64,000 nt of DNA. It comes from Allobrachymonas sp. (lineage in GTDB: Bacteria; Pseudomonadota; Gammaproteobacteria; Burkholderiales; Burkholderiaceae_C). A program made the position numbers and the translations under genes. This document shows positions 984 through 61,815 of this stretch, one piece after another (the stretch's first letter is position 1; each line of letters begins with the position of its first letter). Under the pieces are notes generated by a model, which saw only the letters and a list, made by a program, of their open reading frames with translations, was not told where the DNA came from and ran no database searches. Location of the stretch: contig JAUMWT010000007.1 in the NCBI GenBank assembly GCA_030529505.1, forward strand, positions 33,228-97,227. Direction: 5' to 3'.

Positions 984-1172
984 AGAGCCTGTTCAGGATT
1001 TCCTCACGGGCGCTTGAAAACGAAAGCGGGCGGTTTGCTGCGTTGCCAATCTTGCCAACCTTGTGTCTATGTTGCGCGAGCGATGCGCTTCGCTCATGTC
1101 CTTTGATGTGCGCCTTGCATCCCATCCCGCACTTTGTCCAATCGCCTCGCGTCGAGATCGTGAACAGGCTCT
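984..1172 (+). repeat. Palindromic MITE-like element, copy A
   Basis: 189 bp copy of the dispersed family. It begins AGAGCCTGTTCA and ends TGAACAGGCTCT, which are exact reverse complements over 12 bases, with weaker complementarity continuing inward. The left arm (CGCTTGAAAA ... GCGGGCGG ... TTGCCAATCTTG) pairs imperfectly with the right arm (TTTGATGTGCGCCTTGCATC ... CCAATCGCCTCGCG). It fills most of the gap between cobQ and the small Trp-rich protein gene. I see no gene in the rest of that gap (939-1352). Confidence 0.85.
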
Positions 1173-1352
1173 GAGGCTGTGAGTGATCGGCCAAATAGGC
1201 GCTCATATTGGGCGTTCACTTTTCACCTGCCGTGCCCGATAATGTGGCCGATCAAGGCGCGCTGGTGATTGATGCATGGCGCGCAAGATCTGGGGCGGGC
1301 CGCAGCCCAAGGGGCAAACGCAGGCCAGCGATGAAATCAGGGAGCATCAAGC

Positions 1353-1595
1353 ATGTACTTTTTGGGAATCGGCGTTTTACTGCTCATCCTCAAACTTCTG
1401 GAAATCGATCCGGTCGCGACTTGGAGTTGGCTTTACGTCCTGGCTCCGTTTGCGCTGGCCGCGCTGTGGTGGGCCTGGGCCGATGCCAGCGGCTACACCA
1501 AGCGCAAAGCCATGGAGAGGATGGACGCCATCAAAGACAAGCGCCTGCAAGAGCAGCGCCAAGCCCTGCACCGCAGCATGCGTGGCCGCCGCTGA
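1353..1595 (+). CDS. Small Trp-rich membrane protein
   Basis: 80-residue protein beginning MYFLGIGVLLLILKLL. It has two hydrophobic stretches (about 2-16 and 25-42), a WSW and a WWAW motif, then a basic, charged C-terminus (KRKAMERMDAIKDKRLQEQR). This matches the small Trp-rich protein family that I know from Comamonadaceae and relatives; its function is unknown. The short polar tail is probably cytoplasmic. It lies 89 bp upstream of dapA on the same strand and could share a transcript with it. The start follows a GGGAGCATCAAGC leader, a usable ribosome-binding site. Confidence 0.75.
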   Translation: MYFLGIGVLLLILKLLEIDPVATWSWLYVLAPFALAALWWAWADASGYTKRKAMERMDAIKDKRLQEQRQALHRSMRGRR

Positions 1596-1684
1596 AGCGG
1601 CGGATTGACAGGCGCTGGCAAATTTACAATTCTGCTTTTCCGCAGCCTCAGCGCTTGCGTTTTTGTGCTTGAAAGACATTCACC

Positions 1685-2569
1685 ATGCATGCAATCACCG
1701 GCAGTATCGTTGCCCTGGTCACCCCTTTTCTTCCTGATGGTTCAGTCGATTACGCGGGCTTGCGCAAGCTGATCGACTGGCACGTCGAGCAAGGCACCCG
1801 CTGCATCGCCGTGGTGGGCACCACGGGTGAAGCGCCCACCGTCACGGTCGAAGAGCATTGCGAAATCATCCGCGTGGCGGTGGAACAAGCCGCCGGGCGC
1901 CTGCCCATCATGGCCGGTTGCGGGGCCAACTCCACGGCCGAGGCGATCAACCTCGCGCGCTTTGCCAAAAGCGTGGGCGCCGATTGCCAATTGCAAGTCG
2001 TGCCCTACTACAACAAGCCCACGCAAGAAGGGCAGTACCAGCACTTCAAAAAAATTGCCGAAACCGTGGGCGACCTGCCCATGGTGCTGTACAACGTGCC
2101 GGGCCGCACCGTGGCCAGCATGGAGCACGACACGGTGCTGCGTCTGGCGCAGATTCCGGGCATCGTCGGCATCAAGGAGGCCACCGGCGATCTGGCCCGG
2201 GCGCAATGGCTGATTCGCGATGTGCCCCAGGGCTTTGCCGTGTATTCGGGCGACGATGCCACCGCCGTGGCCCTGATGCTGTGCGGTGGGCAGGGCAATA
2301 TCAGCGTCACGGCCAATGTGGCGCCCGCCCAGATGCAGGCCCTGTGCCAGGCCGCCATGACCGGCCAGCGCGACGAGGCCATGCGCCTGCAACGGCTGCT
2401 GCTGCCCCTGCACAAGCATTTGTTTGCAGAGTCCAACCCCATTCCCGTCAAATGGGCCATGCAGCGCCTGGGCCTGTGCGGCGGCGGCCTGCGTTTGCCA
2501 CTCACGCCCTTGAGCGCCGCCCACCAGCCTGCGGTCGAAAACGCCCTGAAATCGGCTGGCTTGCTATGA
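1685..2569 (+). CDS. dapA: 4-hydroxy-tetrahydrodipicolinate synthase
   Basis: Condenses pyruvate with aspartate semialdehyde in the first committed step of the diaminopimelate/lysine branch. The 294 residues match the family length. Visible landmarks are GTTGEAPT (45-52), YYNKPTQEG (108-116), the catalytic tyrosine in YNVPGRT (Tyr136), the Schiff-base lysine in GIKEATGDL (Lys164) and YSGDDA. It is followed after 100 bp by bamC on the same strand, the dapA-bamC order known from other proteobacteria. Confidence 0.97.
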
Positions 2570-2669
2570 TGCGTCGTCGCGGCCAGCGGGCTTTGCCGGG
2601 GCCGCTCATTTGTCGGGCTTCTTGTGTTGGCCTGTTGTTGGCGCAGCGCCTGCGCTGCTTGAGAACCGA

Positions 2670-3812
2670 ATGCTTATGAACGCTTTGCGAAAACTCTCCC
2701 TTCTTGGTTTGGCCGCGGCCTTGACGGCCTGTACCGCTACCAGCGGTGGCGGCATCGACTACCGCTCGGCCCGCCGTGGCAACCCGCTGGAAGTGCCGCC
2801 TGACCTGACGCGCTTGAGCAGCGACGGCCGCTACAACGTGCCCGGCAGCGCCAGCGCGGTGGACTATGCCAGCGATAAAAAGACCGAAGGGCAAAGCGTG
2901 GCCACGGCCCTCACCGCTGTGGGCGACGTGCAAATCAAGCGCGACGGCAACCAGCGCTGGCTGGTGGTGCAGCGCACCCCTGCCGAGTTGTGGGAACCCG
3001 TGAAGGCTTTTTGGGAAGACAACGGCTTTGTGCTGGCCGTTGAAGATCGCAAGATCGGCGTGATGGAAACCGACTGGGCCGAAAACCGCGCCAACATTCC
3101 ACTCGATCCCATCCGCGCCGCCTTGGGCCGTGCGCTGGATTCTCTCTATTCCACCGGCCAGCTCGATCGCTTCCGCACCCGGTTGGAGGCCAATGCCAGC
3201 GGCGGCACCGACATCTTCGTGAGCCAGCGCGGCATGGAAGAGGTCTACACCACGCGCGACAAATCCACCACCGCCTGGCAGCCGCGCGCCAACGATCCGG
3301 CGCTGGAAGATGAGTTCCTGCGCCGCATGATGGTGGCGCTGGGCGTGCCGGCCGAGCGGGCCACGGCCTTGATCAAGCAATCGCAAGCGGCTGGCCAAAC
3401 AGGCGGTGCAGCCGCTGCGCCAACGGCCGCACAAGCCGGCGTGCAATACAACGAAGCGGCCCAGGCCCTGCTGCTGACCGACAATTTCGACCGCGCCTGG
3501 CGCCGTGTGGGCTTGTCGCTTGATCGTTCCGGCTTCACGGTAGAAGACCGCGACCGCAGCGCTGCCGTGTATTACGTGCGTTATGTGCCCTTCGTGCCCG
3601 AAAAGAAAGAGCCGACCGGCTGGCTCAGGCGCATGTTCCGCAAAACGCCTGAAGTCAAAGCCGTGCGCTACCGCGTGCAGTTGCAAAGCGTGGGGCAAAA
3701 CCAGGGCGCAGGCACCGCAGTGCGCGTGCAGATGGAAAACGGCCAGCCTGCCAGCGCTGGCGACAGTGCACGCATCCTCAAACTGCTGGCCGAGGATTTG
3801 CGCCGCTCTTAA
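2670..3812 (+). CDS. bamC: Outer membrane assembly lipoprotein BamC
   Basis: Lipoprotein of the BAM complex that folds beta-barrel proteins into the outer membrane. About 380 residues with a short signal peptide ending in the lipobox LTAC, so acylation is expected at the Cys near residue 16-18. It continues with the conserved early motif NPLEVPPDL and two helix-grip domains (about 100-215 and 265-380). ATG codons at 2670 and 2676 are both possible. I use 2670, after GAGAACCG; a longer in-frame start at 2610 would bury the signal peptide. An intrinsic terminator follows at 3867. Confidence 0.92.
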   Translation: MLMNALRKLSLLGLAAALTACTATSGGGIDYRSARRGNPLEVPPDLTRLSSDGRYNVPGSASAVDYASDKKTEGQSVATALTAVGDVQIKRDGNQRWLVVQRTPAELWEPVKAFWEDNGFVLAVEDRKIGVMETDWAENRANIPLDPIRAALGRALDSLYSTGQLDRFRTRLEANASGGTDIFVSQRGMEEVYTTRDKSTTAWQPRANDPALEDEFLRRMMVALGVPAERATALIKQSQAAGQTGGAAAAPTAAQAGVQYNEAAQALLLTDNFDRAWRRVGLSLDRSGFTVEDRDRSAAVYYVRYVPFVPEKKEPTGWLRRMFRKTPEVKAVRYRVQLQSVGQNQGAGTAVRVQMENGQPASAGDSARILKLLAEDLRRS

Positions 3813-3866
3813 TCACCGCCACATTGATCGCATTTGATCGCCCATCCATGCCCTGCATGGTTGAAG

Positions 3867-3898
3867 CAGCCGCCTCAATACATCGGGCGGCTGTTTTT
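3867..3898 (+). terminator. Rho-independent terminator after bamC
   Basis: Perfect 8-bp stem CAGCCGCC (3867-3874) / GGCGGCTG (3886-3893), an 11-base loop, then TTTTTC. It ends the dapA-bamC transcription unit. Confidence 0.8.
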
Positions 3899-3949
3899 CA
3901 TGGGGGCGGGCGAGTCGGTCAATAAAACATCCGTCACGATGAATCCGCC

Positions 3950-4729
3950 ATGAGCATGCGCTTCAAAAGCCTGGGCAGCGGCAGCGCGGGCAATGCCACC
4001 TTGATCGAAGTGGGCGACGGCCTGCGGCGGCGATTCGTGCTCATCGACTGCGGCATGCCCCTGCGCCAGCTGACCGCGCGATTGCAGCAGGCCGGGGTGG
4101 AGCCAGAGCAGCTGGCCGCCGTCTTCATCACGCACGAGCATCTGGATCACACCGGCTGCGCGCAGCAGTTGGTGTTGCGCCATCGCATTCCCGTGTGGAT
4201 GAGCCGGGGCACGCATGTGGGCATGGGCGCGCCCGACTGGCAGGGCCTGCTGCATTACGCGCGCGATGGCGATGTGCTGGACGTGGGCGGCCTGCAACTG
4301 CAGCCGTTTACCGTGCCGCACGATGCGCGCGAGCCGCTGCAACTGCGCTGCAGCGATGGCGACCGGGTGCTGGGCATTGCCACCGATCTGGGCCATGCCA
4401 CGGCCCATGTGCTGGCCAGCTTGCAGCAATGCCATGCTTTGCTGATCGAATCGAATCACGATCCCGAGCTGTTGGCAGCCTCGCGCTATCCGGAATTTCT
4501 CAAGCGGCGCGTGGCTGGCGACCTGGGGCATTTGAGCAATGCGGCAGCCGCGGCCTTGGCACAAGCCCTCAACCACAGCGGCCTGGGGCATGTGCTGGCC
4601 GGGCATTTGAGCGAGCGCAACAACCGCCCCGAGCTGGCCGCGGCGGCCTTGGCCCCTGCCTTGAATCGCGGCCTGGCCGATGTGCAATTGGCCGATGCGG
4701 CAAACGGCAGCGATTGGCTGGGTGTGTGA
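3950..4729 (+). CDS. MBL-fold metallo-hydrolase (YycJ/WalJ-like)
   Basis: 259-residue cytoplasmic hydrolase of the metallo-beta-lactamase fold. The N-terminus RFKSLGSGSAGNATLIE is the typical YycJ-like start. THEHLDHTG (about 63-71) is the HxHxDH metal-binding motif, with later histidines in VPHDA, TDLGHAT and LAGHLSERNNRPE completing a di-metal site. The substrate is unknown; relatives are implicated in nucleic-acid or cell-wall-linked processing. The start could be the ATG at 3950 or the one at 3956. It stands alone after the bamC terminator. Confidence 0.85.
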   Translation: MSMRFKSLGSGSAGNATLIEVGDGLRRRFVLIDCGMPLRQLTARLQQAGVEPEQLAAVFITHEHLDHTGCAQQLVLRHRIPVWMSRGTHVGMGAPDWQGLLHYARDGDVLDVGGLQLQPFTVPHDAREPLQLRCSDGDRVLGIATDLGHATAHVLASLQQCHALLIESNHDPELLAASRYPEFLKRRVAGDLGHLSNAAAAALAQALNHSGLGHVLAGHLSERNNRPELAAAALAPALNRGLADVQLADAANGSDWLGV

Positions 4730-4981
4730 CTGGGGAGCGATTGATGGATGGCGCACACGCGCGGCATCGCGCAGACGTCATCCTTTGTGGGGGCTTTGGC
4801 GCGTGCGGCTGCTTGTGCCTGCCAGCCTCTTTCAAAAAGCGAAGTAAAAGAGTGTGAGCATCTGCAGCGCCAGGCGAGGCGCTTCAGACGGGCGCGCGCA
4901 TGATGCAGATACATTGCCACACATTGCCGCAGCCGCGAAGCGTTGCCAGTGGCGGGGCGCTCTGGCAGCATGGGCGGCCAT

Positions 4982-6478
4982 ATGGATACGCCCCTCAGCT
5001 CTTTTACCGCAACTCCTTCGCCTGCGCCCGTTGCTGCACCTGTTGCAGCAACGCCCGATCTGTTTGAAGAGGTGGAATCATCCGCCGAGGCCATGCAGCG
5101 CCTGTTGCAGCAGCAACAGCAAGAGCACCATGCCATGCCCTATCCCACTTGGGCGGTGCGGCAAGAACGCATCGATCGCCTGCAGCGCATGCTGGAGCAC
5201 AACGCCGACGCTTTTGTGCAAGCCATTGCGCAAGACTTTGGCCACCGCGCCAGGCAAGAAACGCAGTTGGCGGAAATCGACTTCGTGCTGTCTGAAATCA
5301 AATACGTGCAGCGCAAACTCAAAAGCTGGATGCGCGTGCGCCGCGTGCCCACGGCCTTGCCGTTCTGGCCGGCCAGCAACCGCTTGCTGCGTCAGCCGCT
5401 GGGCGTAGTGGGGGTGGTCGCCCCCTGGAACTACCCTTTGCAACTGGCGCTTTCGCCTGCGTTGGGCGCCTTGGCGGCGGGCAACCGGGTGATGATCAAG
5501 CCATCCGAACACACGGGGCGCTTTGCGCAGCTGTTGCGTCAGGCCGTGAGCAATTATTTTTCGCCTGGCGAAATGGCGGTGTTGCTGGGTGGCGTGGAAA
5601 CGGCGCAAGCCTTTGTGCAGCTGCCCTTCGATCATTTGGTGTTTACCGGCTCCACCGCCGTGGGGCGGCAAGTGGCCGAGGCGGCTGCGCGCAAGCTCAC
5701 GCCCGTCACGCTGGAACTGGGCGGCAAATCGCCCGTGCTGATCGACCGCTCGGCTGACTTGGCGCTGGCCGCGCAACGCATCGCCTACGCCAAGCTCTTC
5801 AATGCCGGGCAAACCTGCGTGGCGCCAGACTATGTGCTGGTGCACCGCAGCCAGCAAGAGGCATTCGTGCAAGCCTATTCGCAAGCCGTGCGCCGCATGT
5901 ACCCCAGCATTGCGGGCAATGCCGACTACACCAGCATCATCCATCAGGCGCATTTCAGCCGCTTGCTGGCCCTGCTTGAAGAAGCACACCAGCACAGCGC
6001 GCCCATCGTGGTGCTGGGCGAAACCGAACCGGCCCTGCGCCGCCTGGCCCCTTGCCTGGTGATTGATCCGCCCCTGCACAGCCGCCTGATGCAGGAAGAA
6101 ATCTTCGGCCCGGCGCTGCCGGTGCTGACTTACGACAACACCGACCAGGCGCTGGGCCTGATTCGCAGCTGCGCTGACCCGCTGGCCCTGTACTGGTTCG
6201 GTAACGATGGGCAAGAGCGCGAGCGTGTGCTCAACACCACCTTGTCGGGCGGCGTGTGCATCAACGACTGCCTGTTTCATCTGGCGCAGCAGGCCCAGCC
6301 CTTTGGCGGCGTGGGCGCCAGCGGCATGGGCGCTTATCATGGGGAATGGGGCTTTCGCACCTTCAGCAAGGAAAAGCCGGTGTTCATCCAATCGCGCTTC
6401 AGCCTCACGCAATGGCTGCAAGCGCCGTATGGCAAGCGCTTTGAACAGCTGATGCAACTCAAACGCTTTTTGCCTTGA
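4982..6478 (+). CDS. Coniferyl-aldehyde-dehydrogenase-type aldehyde dehydrogenase
   Basis: NAD(P)-dependent aldehyde dehydrogenase, about 498 residues. Family marks are VAPWNYPLQLALSPALGAL, the cofactor loop VFTGSTAVGRQV, ELGGKSPVLID (general-base Glu) and FNAGQTCVAPDYVLV with the catalytic Cys. The tail GGVGASGMGAYHGEWGFRTF with FSKEKPVF is characteristic of the class-3/coniferyl aldehyde dehydrogenase subgroup. The in vivo substrate cannot be told from sequence. The N-terminal 50 residues are Ala/Pro-rich and a Gln run (QQQQQ) follows. ATG codons at 4943, 4970 and 4982 are all in frame; none has a strong ribosome-binding site, so the start is uncertain. Confidence 0.85.
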   Translation: MDTPLSSFTATPSPAPVAAPVAATPDLFEEVESSAEAMQRLLQQQQQEHHAMPYPTWAVRQERIDRLQRMLEHNADAFVQAIAQDFGHRARQETQLAEIDFVLSEIKYVQRKLKSWMRVRRVPTALPFWPASNRLLRQPLGVVGVVAPWNYPLQLALSPALGALAAGNRVMIKPSEHTGRFAQLLRQAVSNYFSPGEMAVLLGGVETAQAFVQLPFDHLVFTGSTAVGRQVAEAAARKLTPVTLELGGKSPVLIDRSADLALAAQRIAYAKLFNAGQTCVAPDYVLVHRSQQEAFVQAYSQAVRRMYPSIAGNADYTSIIHQAHFSRLLALLEEAHQHSAPIVVLGETEPALRRLAPCLVIDPPLHSRLMQEEIFGPALPVLTYDNTDQALGLIRSCADPLALYWFGNDGQERERVLNTTLSGGVCINDCLFHLAQQAQPFGGVGASGMGAYHGEWGFRTFSKEKPVFIQSRFSLTQWLQAPYGKRFEQLMQLKRFLP

Positions 6479-6517
6479 TGGCCTTGCAATGAATAGGTTT
6501 CTGCTACGCTTGGGCGC

Positions 6518-6748
6518 ATGATGAAGAAGCAAGAATCACACAAAGGCAAGGCGCTGCAGGCGGCGCGATTCAGGGCAATGGGCACAGCCGGAGTGGCCGC
6601 ACTGATCGGTGCTGTGCTGCTGGCGGGCTGTTCCGCTACGGGCACGCACAGGGCCGATCAATCGGCGGGCAATGGCGTGCAGGTGTATGGCGAAATCGAC
6701 CTGGGCTACGGCCATTCGCGTACCCGCACGCGTGTGCAGGGCCAGTGA
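6518..6748 (+). CDS. Small putative lipoprotein, function unknown
   Basis: 76 residues. A basic N-terminus (MMKKQESHKGK) is followed by a hydrophobic stretch ending in LLAGC, a good lipobox with Cys near residue 36. The mature part is only about 40 residues and ends GVQVYGEIDLGYGHSRTRTR. VQVYGEIDLG resembles the first strand of betaproteobacterial porins (typically VTLYGxIDxG). It may therefore be a small outer-membrane lipoprotein or a remnant of something larger. It lies 39 bp after the aldehyde dehydrogenase gene and about 120 bp before tRNA-Lys. No function is proposed. Confidence 0.6.
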   Translation: MMKKQESHKGKALQAARFRAMGTAGVAALIGAVLLAGCSATGTHRADQSAGNGVQVYGEIDLGYGHSRTRTRVQGQ

Positions 6749-6794
6749 GTGAGGATGCGTGCCCACAATTAAATGGCCGGGGCACGCAAAAAAA

Positions 6795-6824
6795 TTGCGA
6801 AGGGTGCAAAAATCGTTGTACAAT
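6795..6824 (+). promoter_or_regulatory. Sigma-70 promoter of tRNA-Lys
   Basis: TTGCGA (6795-6800), an 18-base spacer and TACAAT (6819-6824), in an A-rich stretch about 50 bp upstream of the mature tRNA start. Spacing and position fit a strong housekeeping promoter. Confidence 0.7.
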
Positions 6825-6871
6825 CTCGCGCTTAGCAACACGCTGATTTGTTTTTGAGGCGTGTGCCGAGT

Positions 6872-6947: not shown

Positions 6948-6956
6948 CCAATACAA

Positions 6957-15218: not shown

Positions 15219-15408
15219 AGAGCCTGTTCACAATCTCCTCGCGGGCGCTTGAAAATGGAAACGGGCGGTCTGCGGCGTTGCAAATCTTGTCAATCATCTT
15301 GAACATGTCGCACGGGCTATGCCCTTCGCTCATATCCTTTGATTTGCGCCTTGCATCCCATCCCGCTTCATTTCCAATCACTTCACGATGAGATCTTGAA
15401 CAGGCTCT
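15219..15408 (+). repeat. Palindromic MITE-like element, copy B
   Basis: 190 bp; among the best-preserved copies. Terminal repeats are AGAGCCTGTTCA at the left and TGAACAGGCTCT at the right. The left arm GCGCTTGAAAATGGAAACGG pairs imperfectly with TCCCGCTTCATTTCCAATCA at the right. The central segment CACGGGCTATGCCCTTCGCT is shared with copy F and, less exactly, others. It occupies half of the gap between phaR and rimO; the rest (15157-15540) holds only the rimO leader. Confidence 0.9.
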
Positions 15409-38544: not shown

Positions 38545-39510
38545 ATGGTTGACACACCTGACTCTGCAACAGAATCGCAGCAGACGCTGCGGCTCCTGGT
38601 CAAAGGCTTTGCGGGCTTTGACCAGCGCCTGCTTGACGGCGTGGTCAAGCTTTCCAAGCGGCGCAACCCGGCACTCGAATTGGTCGATGCCGTCACGGCT
38701 GCGGGGGTGGACGTCGTCATGGTCGATGGCAAAGACGCGCAAGCCGTGGCCTGGGCGCACAGCCAGCAAACCTGGCTGGCCGGGCAGGCCGTGGTGTGGG
38801 TGGATGCCGAGCACGAACTGCCCGCCAGCCACACCGGGCTCAAGCGCCCCGTGCAGTGGACGAATCTGCCCGTCATCCTGTCGCGGGCGATGGACGATGC
38901 GGCCCATCTCGCAGGGCATGCAGCCGCAGGCTCTGCAGCTGCGGCAGCCGGGGCAAATGCTTCCTCCGGCGCGGCTTCTGCTCCAGCATCTGCATCTGAC
39001 AAGCAATGTCTGGCCGCTGCCGCAGCACGGCTGGAGGCGGGCGCGCATTCTCAGCAGGCATCAGCGGCTCACACCGTGGCGGCACCAGCTGCCGAGCCGG
39101 TGGCTCATGCGCCTGGCATCTCGCCCAAGATTCTGGTGGTGGATGACAGCGCCGCCGTGCGCGGGCACCTGGAATCGGCGCTCAAAGCCGTGGGTTACGA
39201 GGTGACTGCCGTGGACAGCGGCGAAGCCGCCATCATGGCCGTGGGCGCGCGGCCCTATGCCTGCATCCTGATGGACGTGCTCATGCCCGGCATCGACGGC
39301 TACGAAGCCTGCCGCAAGATCAAGGCCATGCCGCTGAATGGGCGCGGCGTGCGGCCAGCCATCGTCATGCTTACCAGCAAATCCTCGCCGTTCGACCGCA
39401 TCCGCGGCAAGATGGCCGGTTGCGATGCCTACCTGACCAAGCCGGTGCAGCGTTCGCACCTGATGCAGGTGCTGGCCGAGCATTGCTTCAAGCATTTGAC
39501 AGCGGCCTGA
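38545..39510 (+). CDS. PilG-like response regulator with extra N-terminal domain
   Basis: 321 residues. The C-terminal receiver (about 193-315) is complete: acidic pair Asp200-Asp201 in ILVVDDSAAVR, phosphoacceptor Asp244 in CILMDVLMPG, switch Thr in VMLTSKSS and Lys299 in YLTKPV. Residues 1-120 form a separate alpha/beta-like domain that I do not recognise. An Ala/Ser-rich linker (about 121-190) joins the two. Receiver type and position at the head of a PilG-PilH-PilI-PilJ-ChpA order suggest the PilG role in type IV pilus/twitching signalling. AAGGG lies five bases before the ATG. Confidence 0.8.
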   Translation: MVDTPDSATESQQTLRLLVKGFAGFDQRLLDGVVKLSKRRNPALELVDAVTAAGVDVVMVDGKDAQAVAWAHSQQTWLAGQAVVWVDAEHELPASHTGLKRPVQWTNLPVILSRAMDDAAHLAGHAAAGSAAAAAGANASSGAASAPASASDKQCLAAAAARLEAGAHSQQASAAHTVAAPAAEPVAHAPGISPKILVVDDSAAVRGHLESALKAVGYEVTAVDSGEAAIMAVGARPYACILMDVLMPGIDGYEACRKIKAMPLNGRGVRPAIVMLTSKSSPFDRIRGKMAGCDAYLTKPVQRSHLMQVLAEHCFKHLTAA

Positions 39511-39663
39511 GAAGCCGTTCAAAACTTCCTCGCGTGCGCTTTTGAGCGATGGTTGTGAGCGGGTCTGCTGCCTTGTCAATCTTGTCAATGGCACAGCCCC
39601 TTTGGCTTCCATCTCCAATCGCCCCATCTCCAATCGCCTCACGAAGAGGTTTTGAACAGGCTC
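39510..39663 (+). repeat. Palindromic MITE-like element, copy C
   Basis: 154 bp, a shortened and more diverged copy. The left end AGAAGCCGTTCAAAACTTCC begins on the last base of the pilG-like stop codon. The right end is TTTTGAACAGGCTCC. CATCTCCAATCGCC is duplicated in tandem near the right end. Following bases up to about 39776 may be another decayed copy, too diverged to call. Confidence 0.7.
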
Positions 39664-39845
39664 CAAGCCTTCCTGTGGCGCACGGGCGCTGCGCCGCGCA
39701 CTCGAATGGCGCTTCGCACTCCCACTTCCCCGCTCCTGCCCAGTCGGCTCGCCTTGGAGTCATGCGCAGGCTCTGAGGGGGTCGTAAAACGTCAAAGTCC
39801 CGGCAAAGCTGTTCGGGGGCTGGTGCCCAGGCGGTGATGCGACAG

Positions 39846-48746: not shown

Positions 48747-48759
48747 GGTGAATCCGACT

Positions 48760-49242
48760 ATGCAGACATTGAGTTCCCTACCGGTTGCGCCGCACATCGC
48801 CTCGGCCCGCCGCATCGTGCGCGGCAGCTACGTGCTGCTGCGCGCCGACGGCCTGCGCTTGCTCGTGCCGCAGGCCGACATCCAGAACACCGATTACATG
48901 CAGCTGCGCCCCGAACTGATCGAAGGCGAAAGCGGCTTGCTGCACATGCCCGGCAGCGACGATGGCGCGGTGTACGTGGCCATTGCTGCCGACATGCGCC
49001 TGCTGGACGAATGCCCGAGCGACCGCTTCGTGAGCACCCGCTTCAACGGCGGGGTGGACGTGCAGTGGTGCTGGAGCGAAGTGCGCGTGCTGATCGACGT
49101 GCAACTGCCCTGCGAAGCCCTGCCGCCCGTGCTGCTGGCCGAACACACGCCGGTGCGCGAACTGGTGGCCGTGGGCGAAGAATGGGCCTATCTGTGTTCG
49201 GCCGAGAAGATGCAGCAATTTGCGCTCTCGCCCAGAGGCTGA
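48760..49242 (+). CDS. Unknown protein of the chemosensory locus
   Basis: 160 residues beginning MQTLSSLPVAPH; not recognised. The region SYVLLRADGLRLLVPQADIQ looks like the first strands of a CheW domain, but the later CheW signatures are absent. The rest is acidic with several Trp/Cys (VQWCWSEVRVLID). It starts 14 bp after the kinase stop, with GAGGTG as ribosome-binding site; a GTG at 48748 would add four residues. Position suggests a divergent adaptor or a ChpA partner; low certainty. Repeat D begins on the last base of its stop codon. Confidence 0.65.
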   Translation: MQTLSSLPVAPHIASARRIVRGSYVLLRADGLRLLVPQADIQNTDYMQLRPELIEGESGLLHMPGSDDGAVYVAIAADMRLLDECPSDRFVSTRFNGGVDVQWCWSEVRVLIDVQLPCEALPPVLLAEHTPVRELVAVGEEWAYLCSAEKMQQFALSPRG

Positions 49243-49405
49243 GAAGCGGCTCATGATCGCCGCACAGGCGCTTGAGTCATGACCGCAGGCGGTCTGCGGC
49301 GTTGCAAATCTTGTCCATCGCACGGGCTATGCACATCGGTTTGCGCCTTGCATCCCATCCCGTTCCACATTCAATCACCTCGCGGTGAGATCATGAACAG
49401 GTTCT
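49242..49405 (+). repeat. Palindromic MITE-like element, copy D
   Basis: 164 bp. The left end AGAAGCGGCTCATGATC and right end GATCATGAACAGGTTCT are imperfect inverted repeats. The conserved interior reads GCGGCGTTGCAAATCTTGTC then TTTGCGCCTTGCATCCCATC. It exactly fills the space between the previous stop codon and the AAGGA ribosome-binding site (49406-49410) of the next gene. Confidence 0.82.
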
Positions 49406-51916: not shown

Positions 51917-52099
51917 AGAAGCTGTTCAAAATCTCATCGCGAGGCGATTGGGCATGGGGCGTGCTGGGCTGCAAGGCGCACATCAAAGTACATGAGTGAA
52001 GGGCATGGCCCGTGCTGTGGAAAAGATCTGTAACGTTGCAGATCGCCTGCTTCCATCATTCAAGCTTCAAGCGTCCGTGAGGGAACTTTGAACCGGTTC
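51917..52099 (-). repeat. Palindromic MITE-like element, copy E (reverse orientation)
   Basis: About 183 bp; the only full copy in reverse orientation. Reading the complement gives the usual order, CTCACGGACGCTTGAAGC ... GCACGGGCCATGCCCTTCAC ... TTTGATGTGCGCCTTGCAG. Ends are AGAAGCTGTTCAAAATCTC at 51917 and TTTGAACCGGTTC near 52099. Lies between fmt and def. Confidence 0.75.
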
Positions 52100-52100
52100 G

Positions 52101-52155
52101 CAGGCGCCTGAAAATGGAGCCGGGCAGTTTGCGGGGCCTTGCGCATCTTGCTCAT
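52101..52155 (+). repeat. Truncated MITE-like fragment beside copy E
   Basis: CAGGCGCCTGAAAATGGAGC and CTTGCGCATCTTGCTCATG match the left-arm interior of the family in the opposite orientation to copy E, but the terminal AGAGCCTGTTC is missing. Probably the remnant of a second insertion. The remaining bases up to def (52156-52474) show nothing recognisable. Confidence 0.5.
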
Positions 52156-52474
52156 GAAGCGGGCGGTGTTTTCATTGTGTATTTCGATTGGTGCTTTCGC
52201 ACCCGTTCGGATCCAAACGCCCCGTGCTGCAGGGCCGTGAACAAGCCTTGCGCTTGCTGGCGATGGGGGGCTTCAAGGCTCTGAAGATCCACAAGCCATG
52301 AAGGGGAGGGCATGTGCGGGGTGGGTCGATCGGCACGGATGGAGGAATCATGCTCGCGCTTTGTTTCCGGCAGATTCCTCCCGCATCTGTGCTTGTATTG
52401 CGCCGCAGTCATCAAGGCGCAGTCATCAAGGGACACGCAGGCTGCGTGGGCAGAACGGCATCCCTTCAGGCGGC

Positions 52475-53240: not shown

Positions 53241-53424
53241 AGAGCCTGTTCACAATCTCCTCACGGGCGCTTGAATGATGGTGAAGATGGAGTCGGGCGG
53301 CCTACTGCGTTGCAAATCTCGTCCATGCACGGGGCTATGCCCTTCGCTCATATCCTTTGATGTGCGCCTTGCAGTCCGTCCTGCCCCTATCCCATCGCCT
53401 CGCGTTGAGAGCGTGAACAGGCTC
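53241..53424 (+). repeat. Palindromic MITE-like element, copy F
   Basis: 184 bp. Begins AGAGCCTGTTCACAATCTCC and ends GTGAACAGGCTCC. Interior CTACTGCGTTGCAAATCTCG, GGGCTATGCCCTTCGCTCAT and GATGTGCGCCTTGCAGTCC agree closely with copies B and H. It lies in the divergent def/LysM-protein region (53003-53625). The rest of that region should hold both promoters: an AT-rich stretch near 53535-53590 includes TTGTTT and TATGCT about 19 bases apart. Confidence 0.87.
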
Positions 53425-55002: not shown

Positions 55003-56523
55003 ATGGGCATGACGCGCGAAGAAGTCGCCGCCTGGCTGCAATTGGTGCAGGCCAGGGGCATTGGCAGCGGCACTGCGCGCCGCTTGCTGGCGGCTTTTGG
55101 GCTGCCGCAGCAGATACTGGCCCAAAGTCCGTCTGCCTTGGCGCAGCTGCTGTCGGCCAAGCAGATTGCGGCCCTGCGCACGCCCGATGACGATACATTG
55201 GCCCTGATCGAAGCCACCTGGCAATGGTTGCAGCAGGGCGCGACACCCGCAAGCCTCGTTGGGCAGGGCGATGCGTCCGGCGCGGCCACATCAGCGGCAA
55301 TTGCTTCAAGCAGTGCAGCAACGCTTGCAGCGCACGCGGCATCTGCGTCGGCAGCGCAATCCGGCAGCGCGCAAACTCCCGCGTCTGCGCAGCCACCCCA
55401 ACCACCCTCTCACACGCATTCAGCAGGCGCCTCGGCTCAGCGGCGCCTGTTGACCTTGGGCGATCCGCTCTATCCGCCCTTGCTGCTGCAAATGGCCGAC
55501 CCGCCTGTTTTGCTGTATGCCCTGGGGCAGGTGGATCGCTTGCAGCACCAGCAGCCCTGCATCGCGATGGTGGGCAGCCGCAACCCCACGCCGCAGGGGG
55601 CCGGCAATGCCCGCGCTTTCGGCCGGGCGTTTGCCGAGATGGGCTGGACGGTGGTGTCTGGCCTGGCCTTGGGCGTGGATGGAGCGGCGCACGAGGGGGC
55701 CTTGCAGGCGGCAGAGGGCAGCCGCCCAAATGCTGCGGCCAGGCAGGCCCATGCACGCGGCGGGCTGGCCACCATTGCCGTGGTGGGCACGGGGTTGGAT
55801 CGGGTGTATCCGCGCCAGCATCACGAATTGGCGCACCGCATCGTGCAGCATGGCGTGATCTTGAGCGAAAGCCCCTTGGGCACGCCGCCGCTGTCGCATC
55901 ATTTTCCCAAGCGCAATCGCATCATTGCGGGCCTGAGCCAAGGCGTGCTGGTGGTGGAGGCCGCCCTGCAATCCGGCTCGCTGATCACGGCGCGCCTGGC
56001 GGGCGAGCAAGGCAAGGAGGTCTTTGCCATTCCCGGCTCCATCCATGCGCCGCAGTCGCGCGGCTGCCACGCCCTGATCAAGCAAGGGGCCAAGCTGGTG
56101 GAATCGGCCCAGGATGTGATGGAAGAGCTGCGGCCCATGCTGGCCGCCGGTGAGCAGGCCTGGATGGCCCAGGCAGCCGTTGACGCTGCGGCTGCTGGCC
56201 CTGCGGATGTTCACGATTCATCGGCAGCAGGTGTTGCTGCAGAGGGAGACACAGCCACGGCAGAGGCTGCGCTTGCGATGCCTGCTGCTGGGTCGCCTTC
56301 ATCTGCGGCAAGTGCCCGAGGCTCTGCGGACGATCCACCCGTACAGGGCGAGTCGGGCCTGATCTTGCAAGCGCTGGGGCACGACCCGGCCGGGCTGGAT
56401 GCCCTGCTGGCCCGCACAGGCATGGAAACCGCCACTTTGCAAGCCAAGCTGCTGGAGCTGGAGTTGATGGGACTGGTCGGTCGCCTGCCGGGCGGCCTGT
56501 TTCAGCGCATTGGGGTGGCGTAG
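55003..56523 (+). CDS. dprA: DNA-processing protein DprA
   Basis: Single-strand DNA-binding protein that loads RecA on incoming DNA in natural transformation. About 506 residues, longer than usual. A SAM/HhH-like N-terminus (WLQLVQARGIGSGTARRLLA) leads to the Rossmann-like core: LGDPLYPPLLLQMADPP, IAMVGSRNPTPQGAGNARAF, VVSGLALGVDGAAHEGAL, VVGTGLDRVYPRQHHEL, FPKRNRIIAGLSQGVLVVEA, SGSLITARLAGEQGKEVFAI. A winged-helix DML1-like domain closes it. Ala/Ser/Pro-rich inserts (about 90-145 and 385-445) account for the extra length. Starts at 55003 or 55009 are equal candidates. Confidence 0.93.
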   Translation: MGMTREEVAAWLQLVQARGIGSGTARRLLAAFGLPQQILAQSPSALAQLLSAKQIAALRTPDDDTLALIEATWQWLQQGATPASLVGQGDASGAATSAAIASSSAATLAAHAASASAAQSGSAQTPASAQPPQPPSHTHSAGASAQRRLLTLGDPLYPPLLLQMADPPVLLYALGQVDRLQHQQPCIAMVGSRNPTPQGAGNARAFGRAFAEMGWTVVSGLALGVDGAAHEGALQAAEGSRPNAAARQAHARGGLATIAVVGTGLDRVYPRQHHELAHRIVQHGVILSESPLGTPPLSHHFPKRNRIIAGLSQGVLVVEAALQSGSLITARLAGEQGKEVFAIPGSIHAPQSRGCHALIKQGAKLVESAQDVMEELRPMLAAGEQAWMAQAAVDAAAAGPADVHDSSAAGVAAEGDTATAEAALAMPAAGSPSSAASARGSADDPPVQGESGLILQALGHDPAGLDALLARTGMETATLQAKLLELELMGLVGRLPGGLFQRIGVA

Positions 56524-56689
56524 AGCCTATGGCCCCGTGCTGGGCTTTCTGCCTGTTCTCAGGCGACCTTGTTTGCAGAACGCTGCTGTGTTTAGTCGAA
56601 TGCAGTTGGCGCAGCCGAAAGATTGACATCTGCGTAGCAGCGCAGAAACCATACAGCGGCTTGTCTGGTCGATGATTGGGGGAGCAGGC

Positions 56690-57649
56690 TCAGGCGTCAC
56701 CGCTTTGCTGCATGGCCGCACGTTGGCGCGCGGTGAACAGGTCGTAGGTGTTGATGCCGCGCAGTTCCAGAATGGTGTTGCGCACGGCGGCTTCGACCAG
56801 CACGGCCAGGTTGCGCCCAGCCATGACCTGGAGCAGGGTTTTGCGAATGGGCAGCCCCAGCACGTCTTGATGCAGCGGCTGGGTGGGAATGCGCTCGTAA
56901 TCGCCGGAGCTGCTTTCCAGCCGCATCAGGTGAACGATCAGGCGCAGTCGCATGTGGCGGCGCACGGCGGCTTCGCCAAAGATGGCGCGAATGTCCAGCA
57001 GGCCGATGCCGCGGATTTCGAGCAGGTTTTGCAGCAGTTCGGGGCAGCTGCCTTCGATGCTGTTCTGGTTGACGCGCTGCAAGTCCACCACGTCGTCGGC
57101 CACCAGGCCGCTGCCGCGCGAAATCAGCTCCAGGCCCAGCTCGCTTTTGCCAATGCCAGAGTCCCCCGTGATGAGCACGCCCAGACCCAGAATGTCCATG
57201 AACACGCCGTGCATGCTGGTGTGCTCGGCAAAGTGGCGCGAGAGGTGGGCGCGCAGGGTGTCGATGACGAGGGCGGCACGCTCGGGCGTGACGAACAGCG
57301 GAATCTGCGCCTGATCGGCCATGTGCAGCAGGCCGGCCGGGGGCTGCTGGGCATCGGCCACGATGATGACGGGGGGAGCCAGTTCGATGATGCGCTGGAT
57401 GCGGCGCTGCATGGCGTCGGCGTCGGGCTTGGCTGAGAGGTAGGCGATTTCGCGCTCGCCCAGCACCTGGATGCGGTGGGGGTGGATGTAGTTGAGGTAA
57501 TCCACCAGGTCGGAGCCCGATCCGGCCGCGCGCACGGCCGGTTCATGGAACTGGCGATCGCTTGCGTTTTGGCCGGCGATCCAGTGCCAGTCGAACTTGT
57601 TTTGATGTGTTTGAAACAGCGTATGGGCGGTGATGGCCTTGGGTTGCAT
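56690..57649 (-). CDS. hprK: HPr kinase/phosphorylase
   Basis: Phosphorylates and dephosphorylates HPr at the regulatory Ser. In betaproteobacteria it is part of a regulatory, sugar-transport-free PTS. 319 residues. [20 protein letters not shown] holds the catalytic His; [15 protein letters not shown] is the P-loop; VADDVVDL and the HprK signature [16 protein letters not shown] are present. Start [12 protein letters not shown] at 57649; an upstream in-frame ATG at 57715 adds 22 unlikely residues. Same strand as ptsN and hpf. Confidence 0.95.
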
Positions 57650-57825
57650 GGCAGATCGTGATGTGGTTGGGGCAATGCCTGCCATTCTTGCGCAAAACGG
57701 CGTGCAAGCAGCCACAAATGCGTAGAGAAAACACCCGATCTTGCGTTAATCGAGCATCAGTTGAAGCAGGGAGGCTGTTGAATCGTTGCGCGCAAACGCG
57801 ATGGCTGGCAAGGCGTGGATGGCCA

Positions 57826-58026
57826 AGAGCCTGTTCAAAATTTACTCGCGGGCGGCTTGATTGATGGCAACAGGTGGTGGCTGGCACCGTTGCCAATTGG
57901 GTCTGGCCGTTTGTGTCGCAGGAGCCATGCACTGCGCATCATGTACGCCATGCAGATTGATGGCGGCTTGGGCTTCCATTTCGCTTCCTGCCCCGTCGCC
58001 TTACGCCAGGATCTTGAACAGGCTCT
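57826..58026 (+). repeat. Palindromic MITE-like element, copy G
   Basis: 201 bp, the longest copy. Ends are AGAGCCTGTTCAAAATTTAC and GATCTTGAACAGGCTCT. The interior is more diverged (CGCGGGCGGCTTGATTG; GGCTTCCATTTCGCTTCCTG). It lies between hprK and ptsN. The 176 bp between it and hprK show no gene. Confidence 0.75.
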
Positions 58027-58378
58027 CGGCTGCCAATGGGCCGGATCAAGAGCTGGCAACACGGATTGTTGTGGGTGTGCGTGCCGGGAAGTGTTGCGCG
58101 GGGTAGCCGATATCAGAGCAATATCAGGTCGATGGCTGGGTTGATGGCAGAAGGGGCTGCGGCATCAGAAAAGAAAACCGCGCCAGAAAGCAGGGCGTGG
58201 CGCGCGCAGAAGCAGATGGCAGAAAAGGGTGCGCAGCCGGTGAGGGAGGCAAGGGGCGTGGATGCTGGCGGGTGTGCACCTGCGTGTGGGCAAGCGGGTG
58301 TGTGAGCGAAGCGGCACGAAGGAGCTGCAGGGCAGCGCAGAAACAGATGGTGGCGCAGCAGCGGTTTGGGGTAGCGAA
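58027..58378. other. Gap between repeat G and ptsN end
   Basis: 352 bp, purine-rich on the plus strand with repeated GCAGAA/GGCAGA words. No gene motif, terminator or repeat end is visible. Confidence 0.4.
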
Positions 58379-58846
58379 TCAAGCCGTGGCCATGGGCTGC
58401 CAGGTTTGCACGAGGGCGTGCAGCTCAGCTGCGTCGTGCGTGTTCATCAAACGCTTGCGCACATCGGGGTCGCTGAGCATTTCGGCAATCTCGGCAAGGA
58501 TCTCGAGATGCTTTTGCGTGGCGGCTTCGGGGACGAGCAAAAAAATCAGCAGCCCCACAGGCTGTTCGTCGGGGGCGTCGAAAACGATGGGCTTGGCCAG
58601 GCGAAACAAGGCGGCCATGGGTGATTTGAGGCCCTTGATGCGGCCGTGCGGAATGGCCACGCCATGCCCCAGGCTGGTGGAGCCCAGGCGTTCGCGGGCG
58701 AAAAGGCTGTCGGTGATGGTGGCGCGGCTGAGGTTGTGCAGTTGTTCGAACAACAAGCCGGCCTCTTCAAAAGCCCGCTTTTTGCTGGTGGCTTCTACAT
58801 CAACGAGAACCTGCGTGGCAGGCAAAATGGCGGCAAGACGATTCAT
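58379..58846 (-). CDS. ptsN: PTS IIA-like nitrogen-regulatory protein (EIIA-Ntr)
   Basis: 155 residues of the mannitol/fructose IIA fold. In the PTS-Ntr phosphorelay (EI-Ntr, NPr/HPr) it regulates potassium and nitrogen-related targets and transports nothing. The phosphorylated His67 is in GHGVAIPHGRIKGL. Other landmarks are RERLGSTSLG and LLIFLLVPEAATQKHLEIL. It is usually encoded with rpoN and hpf; here hpf lies 670 bp upstream on the same strand and rpoN is absent from the window. Confidence 0.95.
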   Translation of the reverse strand: MNRLAAILPATQVLVDVEATSKKRAFEEAGLLFEQLHNLSRATITDSLFARERLGSTSLGHGVAIPHGRIKGLKSPMAALFRLAKPIVFDAPDEQPVGLLIFLLVPEAATQKHLEILAEIAEMLSDPDVRKRLMNTHDAAELHALVQTWQPMATA

Positions 58847-59259
58847 AGGGAAAACACCAATACAGAATGTAGATTATGTGCACAAATCCTTCTGCTTCCT
58901 AGTGGAAACCCTAAATCCCACCCATTTTCTGGGTTTTATTGCAGGGCCGGGCGCTTGTTATCGCGGTTCTGCTGTCAATCGGATGCGTTTCTGCCGCTTG
59001 GGTGCCGGTGGGCCAGTCATTGATCATTGCGACGGTTGGTCGGGTGCTCTGGTGGCTATCGCGTTTTTCGTCATTGCTTGGGATCAGGATGGGATCGGGG
59101 TGAATTTTTATTACCCTGCCGATCTGGTGGCTGTGCATGGGTGGAGTGCGCTTGCTGTCTCTGCGCTGTGGTTTTTTGGGCTTTGTCCCCGGGGTTGGGG
59201 GCGATCCGTTTGCTGTCAGCAGCATGGGGCCCCATGAAAAACACCCGGCGCTTGGTGTA
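58847..59259. other. Gap upstream of ptsN
   Basis: 413 bp up to repeat H. The part next to ptsN (58847-58940) is AT-rich and likely holds a ptsN promoter on the minus strand (candidate TAATCT near 58872-58877), but no convincing -35 was found. The remainder has no gene I can support. Confidence 0.4.
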
Positions 59260-59423
59260 AGAGCCTGCTCAAAATCTCCTCGCGGGTGCTTGAAAATGGA
59301 TGCGGGCGGGCCTGCTTCGTTGCAAATCTCGTCCATAGCACGAGCTATGCACTGCGATTTGCGCCTTGCATCCCATCCCGCCCCATATCCAATCGCTTCA
59401 CGATGAGATTTTGAACAGGCTCT
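59260..59423 (+). repeat. Palindromic MITE-like element, copy H
   Basis: 164 bp, well preserved. Ends AGAGCCTGCTCAAAATCTCC and GAGATTTTGAACAGGCTCT. Interior GCTTCGTTGCAAATCTCGTC, CACGAGCTATGCACTGCG and GATTTGCGCCTTGCATCCC. It separates hpf from ptsN. Confidence 0.9.
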
Positions 59424-59516
59424 AAGCGGCCGGGTGCTGTTGTTATTGGGAAAACTGCCGCCGCTTGACCAAGCTGGGTGTTTGACAGCGGCGGCAGGGC
59501 TTGTTGGCAAAAAGAA

Positions 59517-59864
59517 TCAGGCGTCTTCCAGATCGTGCGAGAGGCGCTTTTGTCCTACGGCGTGGTGGGATTGCAGCTTGTCTTTGTAGCGGATGATCTG
59601 GCGGTCGAGTTTGTCGATCAGTTCATCAATGGCTGCGTACATGTCTTGATGGCTGCACTCGGCGTGCAGGTCGTTGCCTTTGACTCCCAGCGTGCATTCG
59701 GCGCGCTGCCGGCGCTCTTTTTCTTTCTGGTTTTCGATGCTCAACAGCACGCGGGCATCTACCACTTGGTCGAAACGGCGAGTGATGCGCTCCAGCTTGC
59801 TGGTGACGTAGTCACGCAGGGCCGGGGTCACTTCCAAATGGTGTCCACTGATGGTCAGATTCAT
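59517..59864 (-). CDS. hpf: Ribosome hibernation-promoting factor, short form
   Basis: 115 residues of the HPF/YfiA family. Binds the decoding centre of the 30S subunit and inactivates ribosomes in stationary phase. Begins [20 protein letters not shown], then [19 protein letters not shown] and the acidic/basic helix [20 protein letters not shown]. The AGGAGGATTT ribosome-binding site fixes the start. The C-terminal dimerisation domain of long HPF is absent. Genetically linked to ptsN and hprK as in other proteobacteria. Confidence 0.95.
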
Positions 59865-60002
59865 AAATCCTCCTGAGGCGTTGAGGGATGTCATCAACCA
59901 TTGGCGCGGGCGCAAGCCGTTGCCAACGACCTGCGGCAGTCGATTCAACTGCAGCCCAAGCACTATGCAGGGCTTTGCGAAAAAAATCAAGCCAGCCGGG
60001 TG

Positions 60003-60130
60003 ATTGCTCTTGATATCTTCACGGGCGCTTGAATCACGAGCGCGGTCGGCCTGCTGCGTGGCGCATCTTGCCCGGCACGCGCCATGCCCCTCAAGCCATG
60101 CCCTTCAATTTGCGCTGGGCATGGCATCCT
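60003..60130 (+). repeat. Degenerate MITE-like element, copy I
   Basis: Diverged partial copy: TCACGGGCGCTTGAATCACG, GGCCTGCTGCGTGGCGCATC, and CAATTTGCGCTGGGCATGGC correspond in order to the family's left arm, centre and right arm. The AGAGCCTGTTC end is eroded and the right end is lost. Confidence 0.5.
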
Positions 60131-60135
60131 CTCTT

Positions 60136-60154
60136 CCAGTCCAGTCCAGTCCAG
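60136..60154 (+). repeat. Short tandem repeat CCAGT
   Basis: Three perfect CCAGT units plus a fourth reading CCAGC, right after degenerate copy I. The other bases of the hpf/aroC divergent region (59865-60497) show no gene; the promoters of both genes are expected there. Confidence 0.6.
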
Positions 60155-60497
60155 CCCAATCCAACCCAATCGATCCGCGTTGGGATCGTTTACAGCTTTC
60201 TGCAGAAGATGCCTCTTCGGCAACAGCCGTTTTTGCCCGTTTGCCCCCAGTCGCTGCGGCGCTTGCCGGGACGGCGGGGAATGCGCGTGTTCCGCGCAAG
60301 GGCTGCGCCATCCGATGAGCAACCTGCTGTTGGGGCGGCCATTTGCCATCCATTTGCCAGCCATTGCCAGCCGTGCGCGCAAACCATGCGCCGGATGCGA
60401 CAGAACACAGGCGGCAGGCTATCAATCATTGCCTGATGTGGCCTGATGGCGCGGGGCCCAAGCCATTGCAGCGTGGCCATCCCGCATAATCCGGGGC

Positions 60498-61598
60498 ATG
60501 AGCGGCAACACACTCGGCACCCTTTTCGCAGTCACCAACTTCGGTGAATCCCACGGCCCGGCCATTGGCTGCGTGATCGATGGCTGCCCGCCCGGCCTGG
60601 CGCTGTCGGCCAGCGACATCCAGCCCGATCTGGATCGGCGCCGCCCCGGCACCAACCGTTACGTCACGCAGCGGCAAGAGGCGGATCAGGTCGAAATCCT
60701 CTCGGGTGTGTACGAAGGCCGCACCACCGGCACGCCCATTGCCTTGCTGATTCGCAATACCGACCAGCGCAGCAAGGATTACGGCGACATCTTGCGCACC
60801 TTTCGCCCCGGCCATGCCGACTATGGCTACTGGCACAAATACGGCATTCGCGATCCGCGCGGCGGCGGGCGCTCGTCTGCGCGGCTGACCGCCCCCACAG
60901 TGGCCGCCGGAGCCGTGGCCAAAAAATGGCTGGCCGAAATGTACGGCGTGCAGTTTCGCGGCTGCATGACGCAGCTGGGCGAGCTGCCCATTGCGTTTGA
61001 GGGCTGGGAGCACGTGCCGAACAACCCTTTTTTCGCCCCCTGTGCCGATGTGAGCGCGCTGGAAGCCTATATGGATGCCCTGCGCAAATCGGGCGACAGC
61101 TGCGGCGCCATCCTGCGCGTGCAGGCCACGAAGCTGCCACTGGGTCTGGGCGAACCGATTTACGACCGGCTGGATGCCGATATCGCGCATGCCCTGATGG
61201 GGCTGAATGCCGTCAAAGGCGTGGAAATCGGCGATGGCTTTGCCTGCGTGGCGCGCCGCGGCAGCGCGCATGGCGATTCGCCCACGCCGCAGGGCTTTGC
61301 CAGCAACCGCGATGGCGGCATCGTCGGCGGCATCAGCAATGGGCAGGATATCGAGGTGCGCCTGGCCATCAAACCCACCAGCTCGATTTTGTTGCCGCGC
61401 GACTCGATTGATTTGGATGGCCAGCCCGCCGTGGTGCAAACCAAGGGGCGGCACGACCCTTGCGTGGGCATTCGCGCCACGCCCATTGCCGAGGCGCTGC
61501 TGGCGCTGGTGGTGATGGAACACGCCTTGCGCCGGCGTGCGCAGTGCGCCGATGTGCGCGTGAGCACGCCTGATGTGGCGCGGCTGGGTGGCGGCTGA
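60498..61598 (+). CDS. aroC: Chorismate synthase
   Basis: Last step of the shikimate pathway: EPSP to chorismate with reduced FMN. 366 residues. The three family signatures are visible: [38 protein letters not shown] and the C-terminal [20 protein letters not shown], plus [18 protein letters not shown]. Length is normal. Divergent from hpf. Confidence 0.98.
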
Positions 61599-61626
61599 AA
61601 GCGCAGAGGGCTTTAAAAACGGCCTG

Positions 61627-61815
61627 AGAGCCTGTTCAAGATTTCCCCGCGGGCGCTTGAAAATGGAAGCGGGTGGTCTGCTGCGTTGCAAATCTTGTCA
61701 AGCACTTTGCTCATCTTGCACGGGCCATGCACTGCGCCACGTGCAAAGATGTGCGCCTTGCATCCCGTTCCGCTCCATTTCCAATTACTTCACGATGAGA
61801 TCTTGAACAGGTTCT
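61627..61815 (+). repeat. Palindromic MITE-like element, copy J
   Basis: 189 bp, well preserved. Ends AGAGCCTGTTCAAGATTTCC and GAGATCTTGAACAGGTTCT. GCGCTTGAAAATGGAAGCGG (left) pairs imperfectly with CGCTCCATTTCCAATTACTT (right). GTGCGCCTTGCATCCCG in the right arm is shared with copies A and B. It lies between the convergent aroC and phoR genes; the rest of that gap (61599-61983) holds nothing else visible. Confidence 0.9.

Follow-up and report, generated by a model that had tools for sequence, protein, structure and literature searches.

Putative IS5-dependent miniature elements of Allobrachymonas with a hairpin core that recurs under different ends across Burkholderiales

Elements of the window and a resident insertion sequence

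A stretch of 64,000 nucleotides of the Allobrachymonas sp. genome (assembly GCA_030529505.1, contig JAUMWT010000007.1, positions 33,228 to 97,227; hereafter the window) contains a dispersed family of short repeated elements with terminal inverted repeats (TIRs), which we interpret as miniature inverted-repeat transposable elements (MITEs; Table 1). A first-pass annotation, made from the sequence alone, had reported nine good copies (A–H and J), one degenerate copy (I) and a fragment, and the presence of a dispersed family was borne out by a profile search, an excess of the end motif and counts of a core 20-mer. All ten elements A–J were recovered with a profile built from 37 copies of the same genome (nhmmer E 6.6e-57 to 8.3e-13); nine of these 37 are window copies A–H and J, the recovery of which is partly circular, and copy I and the fragment were excluded from the profile. 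The end motif AGAGCCTGTTCA (at most two mismatches) occurs 23 times in the window compared to 3.5 expected occurrences, and 23 was reached in 0 of 100 shuffles.

Table 1 Copies and relics of the element family in the window
Feature	Position	Strand	Remarks
MITE copy A, 187 bp	985..1171	+	flanks CGA / TGA
MITE copy B, 188 bp	15220..15407	+	flanks TTA / TCA; served as search query
MITE copy C, 153 bp	39511..39663	+	stop codon (TGA) of predicted gene 38545-39510 forms the left flank
Possible right-half relic	39674..39774	+	borderline, E 0.01 (profile)
MITE copy D, 162 bp	49243..49404	+	stop codon (TGA) of predicted gene 48748-49242 forms the left flank
MITE copy E, 182 bp	51918..52099	-	orientation opposite to other copies
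Truncated copy adjoining E	52098..52245	+	first-pass fragment 52101-52155
MITE copy F, 183 bp	53242..53424	+	
MITE copy G, 199 bp	57827..58025	+	interior diverged
MITE copy H, 162 bp	59261..59422	+	target-site duplication TAA / TAA
Degenerate copy I	60005..60195	+	profile match
MITE copy J, 187 bp	61628..61814	+	target-site duplication TGA / TGA

The annotated elements are real, but their boundaries (AGAG...CTCT) had been drawn one base too wide and were rejected, because a shift of one base inward exposes a TNA duplication; the initial A and the final T of those boundaries are part of this target-site duplication (TSD). The corrected ends GAGCCTGTTCA...TGAACAGGCTC sit inside CTNAG, with a 3-bp TNA duplication in the flanks. 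Thirty-seven copies of the genome were inspected, of which 35 have both ends within three mismatches. The middle base of TNA is identical on both sides in 27 of these 35 (shuffled mean 8.8, maximum 19 in 10,000) and the entire triplet in 17 (shuffled mean 4.7, maximum 13); at first pass, no consistent duplication had been obvious. The misplaced boundary, off by one base, and the scarcity of exact duplications among the window copies account for this oversight. Copy I and the fragment are likewise real, but both are longer than described, copy I extending to about 60195 and the fragment being a truncated copy. At 51918–52245, copy E lies beside this oppositely oriented truncated copy, one element seemingly inserted beside or into another.

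The family is not confined to the window. In the 2.39-Mb assembly (83.5% complete, 100 contigs), the core 20-mer has at least 123 matches and an 18-mer of the end at least 220, each with no match in the reversed control, and a search with copy B found 40 near-full-length places among the best 40 of 236 candidates. The same assembly contains 11 stretches with the transposase domain DDE_Tnp_1 (PF01609) and eight with DUF4096 (PF13340). By our own count, a contig end is no more than 300 bases away for 14 of these 19 stretches, a pattern that a repeat collapsed in assembly would produce. One transposase piece (locus L198) matches the NCBIfam model transpos_IS5_3 with 148 bits (cut-off 110), and ends like GARCCTGTTCACGATCTT with TNA-like flanks are located just outside left and right transposase pieces. 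A single copy of this insertion sequence (IS) has both ends (L213, 906–1921) and is interrupted by a MITE at 1339–1511 with TCA on each side. MITE and IS ends agree at 17 of the first 18 bases (by eye), and the similarity is limited to the TIR, a search of five IS stretches from four hosts having found no core pattern. The insertion sequence with matching terminal repeats that the first-pass annotation had suggested looking for was thus found as a resident IS5-family element. Near a contig start, L200:74-1069 holds a 331-aa frame with the IS5-family transposase as its C-terminal part; neither Pfam nor NCBIfam matches the first ~130 residues of this frame.

Six genomes of the same genus match the window at 51–62 kb, and a profile search of the matching stretches (L262–L267) recovered no element. 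Gap lengths were compared at sites E, F, G, and H of the window. Site E measures about 640 bp in the window and 30 in L264, site G about 860 and about 230 (L263), and site H 713 and 215 (L263). The two values for site F in the window, 482 and 487, compare with 92 in L266 and 76 in L267; in the remaining four genomes a neighbouring gene is missing as well. Same-genus relatives thus appear to lack the element at all four sites, and copies retained at orthologous positions across distant genera without empty sites did not come to light. End matches were present in two of nine same-genus genomes, the one studied here and G007. The inspected G007 copies (L186, L190, L192, L196) have ends like those of our genome (GAGCCTGTTCACAATCTC) around another interior, made of hairpins containing CATTGCGAGGAGCG..GCGACGCGGCAATC, i.e. 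the same ends with another core.

A hairpin core under different ends

A hairpin core of 74 nt is shared by elements with differing ends from across Burkholderiales, which the first-pass annotation had no means of seeing. The core 20-mer (at most two mismatches) is present in 28 of 120 genomes of the family, and a scan of named genomes yielded at least 113 stretches with the core; the records named to genus level belong to genera of Burkholderiales. A first scan with the core pattern of our genome had found nothing, its own variant lacking a base that the relatives have. Plasmids and phages gave no match at blastn sensitivity. One core copy lies on an IMG/VR contig classed as viral (L184), which may be a vehicle between hosts or host DNA.

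In total, 189 core matches were counted, of which 16 were cut by locus ends (these were not de-duplicated) and 173 were assessed. Under a strict rule, ends of the same class flank the core on both sides in 138 of the 173, on one side in 29 and on neither in six, whereas the corresponding counts at places shifted by +600 bp are 0, 29, and 135 (n = 164) and at places shifted by −600 bp 1, 15, and 145 (n = 161). A lax rule (28% mismatches) found both ends at 150 of 173 cores compared to 28 of 164 and 29 of 161 at the shifted places; we quote the strict figures because lax end matching yields many chance matches. A length of exactly 161 bp is shared by 59 of 105 compact elements (range 158–164), in which the most common layout is 44-74-43. 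Their cores measure 72–75 nt with single-base differences and are therefore ill suited to a conserved reading frame. In Tibeticola, where 30 loci were read and one had no ends, 28 of 29 elements are 161 bp long and 23 of 29 carry identical 4-bp duplications.

Conservation is concentrated in the core. Among 77 elements with a 74-nt core, comparison between end classes gave an identity of 0.86 for the core, 0.39 and 0.40 for the adjacent arms, and 0.52 and 0.48 for the ends; the nearest pair from different classes is alike at 73 of the 74 core positions and has arm identities of 0.44 and 0.42. Within classes, across genomes, core identity is 0.85–0.90 and inner-arm identity 0.55–0.70. The length of the target duplication follows the ends, as determined for 144 elements accepted by the strict rule. 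Elements with GAR..TGTTCA-like ends (the TNA class) have a 3-bp duplication in 35 of 67 cases (shuffled mean 12.0) and a 4-bp duplication in none, whereas 4-bp duplications were found in 20 of 49 elements with GGCAACGC ends (shuffled mean 4.2) and in 15 of 26 with GGATGCTC-like ends (shuffled mean 2.3). IS5 is described to target PyTAPu (PMC5493358). An IS5-family element with MITE-like ends resides in four of six hosts, namely our genome, Tibeticola (L242, about 1,171 bp, TTAA), C. denitrificans (L238), and G088 (L240), and relatives of the Tibeticola transposase are encoded in 86 of 250 genomes of the family.

A tree of the cores requires 21 changes of end class but is poorly resolved; its well-supported branches force one or two changes per class, and a single origin of each class may be compatible with it. 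The differences between ends may stem from gradual co-evolution or from recombination, between which the core is too short for its tree to decide. Some loci depart from the compact form. Longer versions (L033, L048, L060, L081, L135, L145, L164, L173) have an inverted-repeat span of about 259–283 bp, and in L033, L048, and L060 the core is off centre with a second hairpin-like stretch beside it. A GGCAACGC-class element at about 1430–1660 of L057 (G023) lies in an apparent tRNA gene of a tRNA array; ARAGORN predicted 13 tRNAs in this locus and none between 1195 and 1665. Within its first 75 bases, the public Xylophilus contig of L141 has poly-C followed by an apparent sequencing-library adapter, presumably a Nextera end.

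The fold was analysed on 70 distinct cores with 16 predicted pairs, using shuffled and partner-slid controls. The predicted pairing is realised in 97.9% of cells (shuffled 91.3), and double changes occur at eight pairs (shuffled 3.6) in 59 cells (shuffled 11.5). This covariation signal vanishes when the pairing partner is slid, a comparison that favours the predicted structure as it derives from the same alignment. Covariation is mostly located in the apical stem, with rare double changes at three of 11 basal pairs. Unpaired core stretches are conserved as well, and columns 16–61 are U-G in 67 of 70 cores. Rfam matched only a tRNA in the window at gathering score and nothing in L001, L066, L074, and L079 at E 0.1. 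Entire window copies were folded on the + strand with 60 shuffles each: A, B, C, F, H, and J fold far below their shuffles (z −4.7 to −7.1), E and G less so (z −2.5 and −2.4), and I (at its first-pass coordinates, z −1.7) and D (z −0.3) not clearly below chance.

Insertions are mostly between genes, here predicted by our own codon-usage script and not taken from an annotation. The earlier view that all window copies are intergenic needs a qualification: C and D abut an upstream predicted gene whose stop codon is the duplicated target. In a list of 154 elements compiled by a lax end rule, so that some ends are possibly wrong, 44 adjoin a neighbouring predicted gene exactly at its stop codon, three were scored inside a gene and 21 were unclear. 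Modelled empty sites coincide with a stop in 17 of 55 TNA sites (9.6% of comparable nearby sites, p = 9e-6) and 14 of 59 YTAR sites (6.4%, p = 1.6e-5), both fractions omitting sites scored inside a predicted gene (21 of 76 and 19 of 78, respectively). Stop-codon insertions are thus enriched about 3–4-fold; in Tibeticola, nine of 29 elements lie at stops. At such insertions, the stop codon is restored by the duplicated TAA, TGA or TAG.

Probable nature of the elements and proposed role of the core

We consider the elements to be type II MITEs with a resident IS5-family partner and a core shared across end classes, with a probability of about 0.82. Their size below 500 bp, TIRs, and TSD agree with MITEs of this type, and a DDE transposase with the same TIRs in the genome together with the 3-bp TNA duplication agrees with an IS5-dependent (IS1031-like) element, the duplication being a mark of the IS1031 group. 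Mobilisation in trans, as proposed in the first-pass annotation, is supported at the level of sequence comparison by the shared IS ends, the TNA duplication, the copy number, the relatives that appear to lack the element and the MITE inside an IS copy. The resident IS5-family transposase would cut and paste the MITE in trans, leaving the 3-bp TNA duplication. The ends vary with the class and suit more than one IS5-family transposase, which suggests that the MITE lineage would have changed its transposase and kept its core.

Several observations weigh against this interpretation or parts of it. No transposition event was observed, the assembly breaks the IS at contig ends for the most part, and the empty sites are inferred from gap lengths and missing matches. 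Exact duplications in the window are restricted to H and J, the two copies of the GGGCCTG class have neither 3- nor 4-bp identity, and lengths of 153–199 bp in the window show that a fixed length is not universal. The evidence for partners is uneven, with a likeness of MITE and IS ends that is shortest in G088 (about 9 contiguous bases, by eye) and, in two of six hosts, only 39–40-residue pieces of the searched transposase family (G144) or nothing (G145). The inner arms pair weakly (0.53 with their own partner vs 0.43–0.44 crossed), and the palindrome is therefore mostly ends and core. Concerning the role of the core, neither the 154-element list (co+ 44, co− 29) nor Tibeticola (co+ 7, co− 10) shows a clear orientation bias towards genes, and wobble pairs are not clearly asymmetric (13 GT vs 8 AC cells, the constant pair 16–61 excluded).

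Our tentative proposal, to which we give slightly less than an even chance, is that the core acts on DNA: as an extruded or bent hairpin it would help the two ends of a short element to meet. This is preferred over a role in RNA because the position of the core is nearly fixed, gene orientation is not, and the insertion sites are not shared by relatives. A role of the core in RNA processing or in neutralising transcripts is less likely; the missing orientation bias and wobble asymmetry speak against action through one RNA strand, and an orientation-specific variant, suggestive at 44/29, was rejected as it was not reproduced in Tibeticola. The core was not found in the examined ISs and therefore, as far as these sequences tell, probably does not serve as a general binding site for transposases. 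With somewhat less confidence than in the role on DNA, we suggest that the hairpin core is the unit of selection, repeatedly re-clothed with the ends of the IS5-family transposase of its host; its lineage would outlive individual transposases, and its place in the middle of an element of ~161 bp would serve transposition.

A functionless core would also account for near-identical cores in different genera, if a single MITE had recently spread among them, its ends changing fast and its stem being kept by template-switch (quasipalindrome) correction. The elements look mobile, transfer is possible, and one core copy comes from a contig assigned to viruses. We nevertheless find this improbable. 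Arms and core differ in identity within single end classes too, which indicates unequal rates of change, and the conservation of unpaired stretches and of the U-G at columns 16–61 is not explained by correction and argues against palindrome correction alone. Slightly more doubtful still is a mainly regulatory, transcribed hairpin that acts on adjacent genes and is retained for that reason, be it a terminator or a site for RNase III or RNase E. The covarying hairpin and the enrichment at stop codons would suit it, and precedents have been proposed for Correia/NEMIS and ERIC (PMC2229807), but insertion positions are not common to same-genus genomes, orientation to genes is not clearly biased, and Rfam has no match.

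Derivation from an IS5-family element by deletion (a type I MITE), with the core as leftover IS interior, has a small chance. At the right end of the Tibeticola IS (L242), the transposase leader GCGGCCTGCTGCGTTGAA matches the left half of the core at 16 of 18 positions (by eye); however, none of five IS stretches from four hosts yielded the core pattern, and MITE and IS share about 9–17 contiguous end bases (by eye). A scan of 30 further IS5-family loci for the core recognised ends in ~20 and gave one motif with three mismatches (L283); this is not a clean negative where ends were not recognised, and for L268, which is the IS of L242 again, the ends were placed wrongly, so that the 16/18 resemblance went unnoticed. 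That the elements are integron attC sites or REP/RAYT palindromes, and not a transposon with TIRs, is very improbable indeed, even though conserved, imperfect, clustered hairpins are alike in outline. REP/RAYT palindromes are not known to have a TIR or TSD and depend on a RAYT transposase. Here, both TIR and TSD are present, the end class sets a 3- or 4-bp duplication, DDE transposases share the ends, and the dispersed insertions are lacking in relatives; no search for RAYT or integrase genes was made.

Relation to known elements

We regard the elements as type II MITEs, in which only the TIR resembles the partner IS (PMC10969869). As in the MITEs of that account, they are shorter than 500 bp, non-coding and mostly intergenic, with TIRs and direct repeats; unlike there, where TIRs define the link to an IS, the interior is conserved across different TIRs and partners. 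The TIRs and duplications of 3 or 4 bp are also those of IS5-family insertion sequences, which are the partner transposases, but the MITEs have no transposase and possess a core not found in the examined ISs.

Other small repeats are similar in part. Neisseria, which also belongs to the Betaproteobacteria, harbours the Correia/NEMIS elements. These are TIR elements of about 105–155 bp with a stem-loop and an internal integration host factor (IHF) site proposed to help transposition (PMC2229807). Their 24-bp TIRs with 5'TA3' at the ends (PMC2229807) differ from GAGCCTGTTCA, GGCAACGC, and the other ends seen here with TNA or YTAR duplications, and identity with them was rejected since our ends are GAG..CTC inside CTNAG and not TA-ended. 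Small size, many copies and a proposed effect via a folded transcript are shared with ERIC/IRU, although ERIC has a 7-bp TIR, a terminal TA, and an orientation-dependent transcript effect (PMC2229807), whereas our elements lack a clear orientation bias. Identity with ERIC was likewise rejected on account of the GAG..CTC ends and an end identity over more than 7 bp. The RUP of pneumococcus, whose TIR resembles IS630-Spn1, inactivates IS transposase genes by insertion (PMC2229807), as the MITE in L213 apparently does; RUP has TA targets and an IS630-type partner, unlike the IS5-family partners and more than one partner type per core found here.

No description of this MITE family was found in the open-licence literature searched. 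An earlier account may exist in the Polaromonas JS666 genome paper, which is cited for MITEs by a review (PMC10969869). What is new is the core conserved under changing ends; the rest fits a known type II, IS5-dependent MITE. MITEs are commonly portrayed as deriving from a single transposon and being recognised by its ends, whereas here the interior is the conserved part, and one core with ends for different transposases is not predicted by the usual picture. Insertion at stop codons is a simple way of landing at a gene without harm. With these elements, experiments can address how a non-autonomous element exchanges one transposase for another, and if a core hairpin aids the movement of very short elements.

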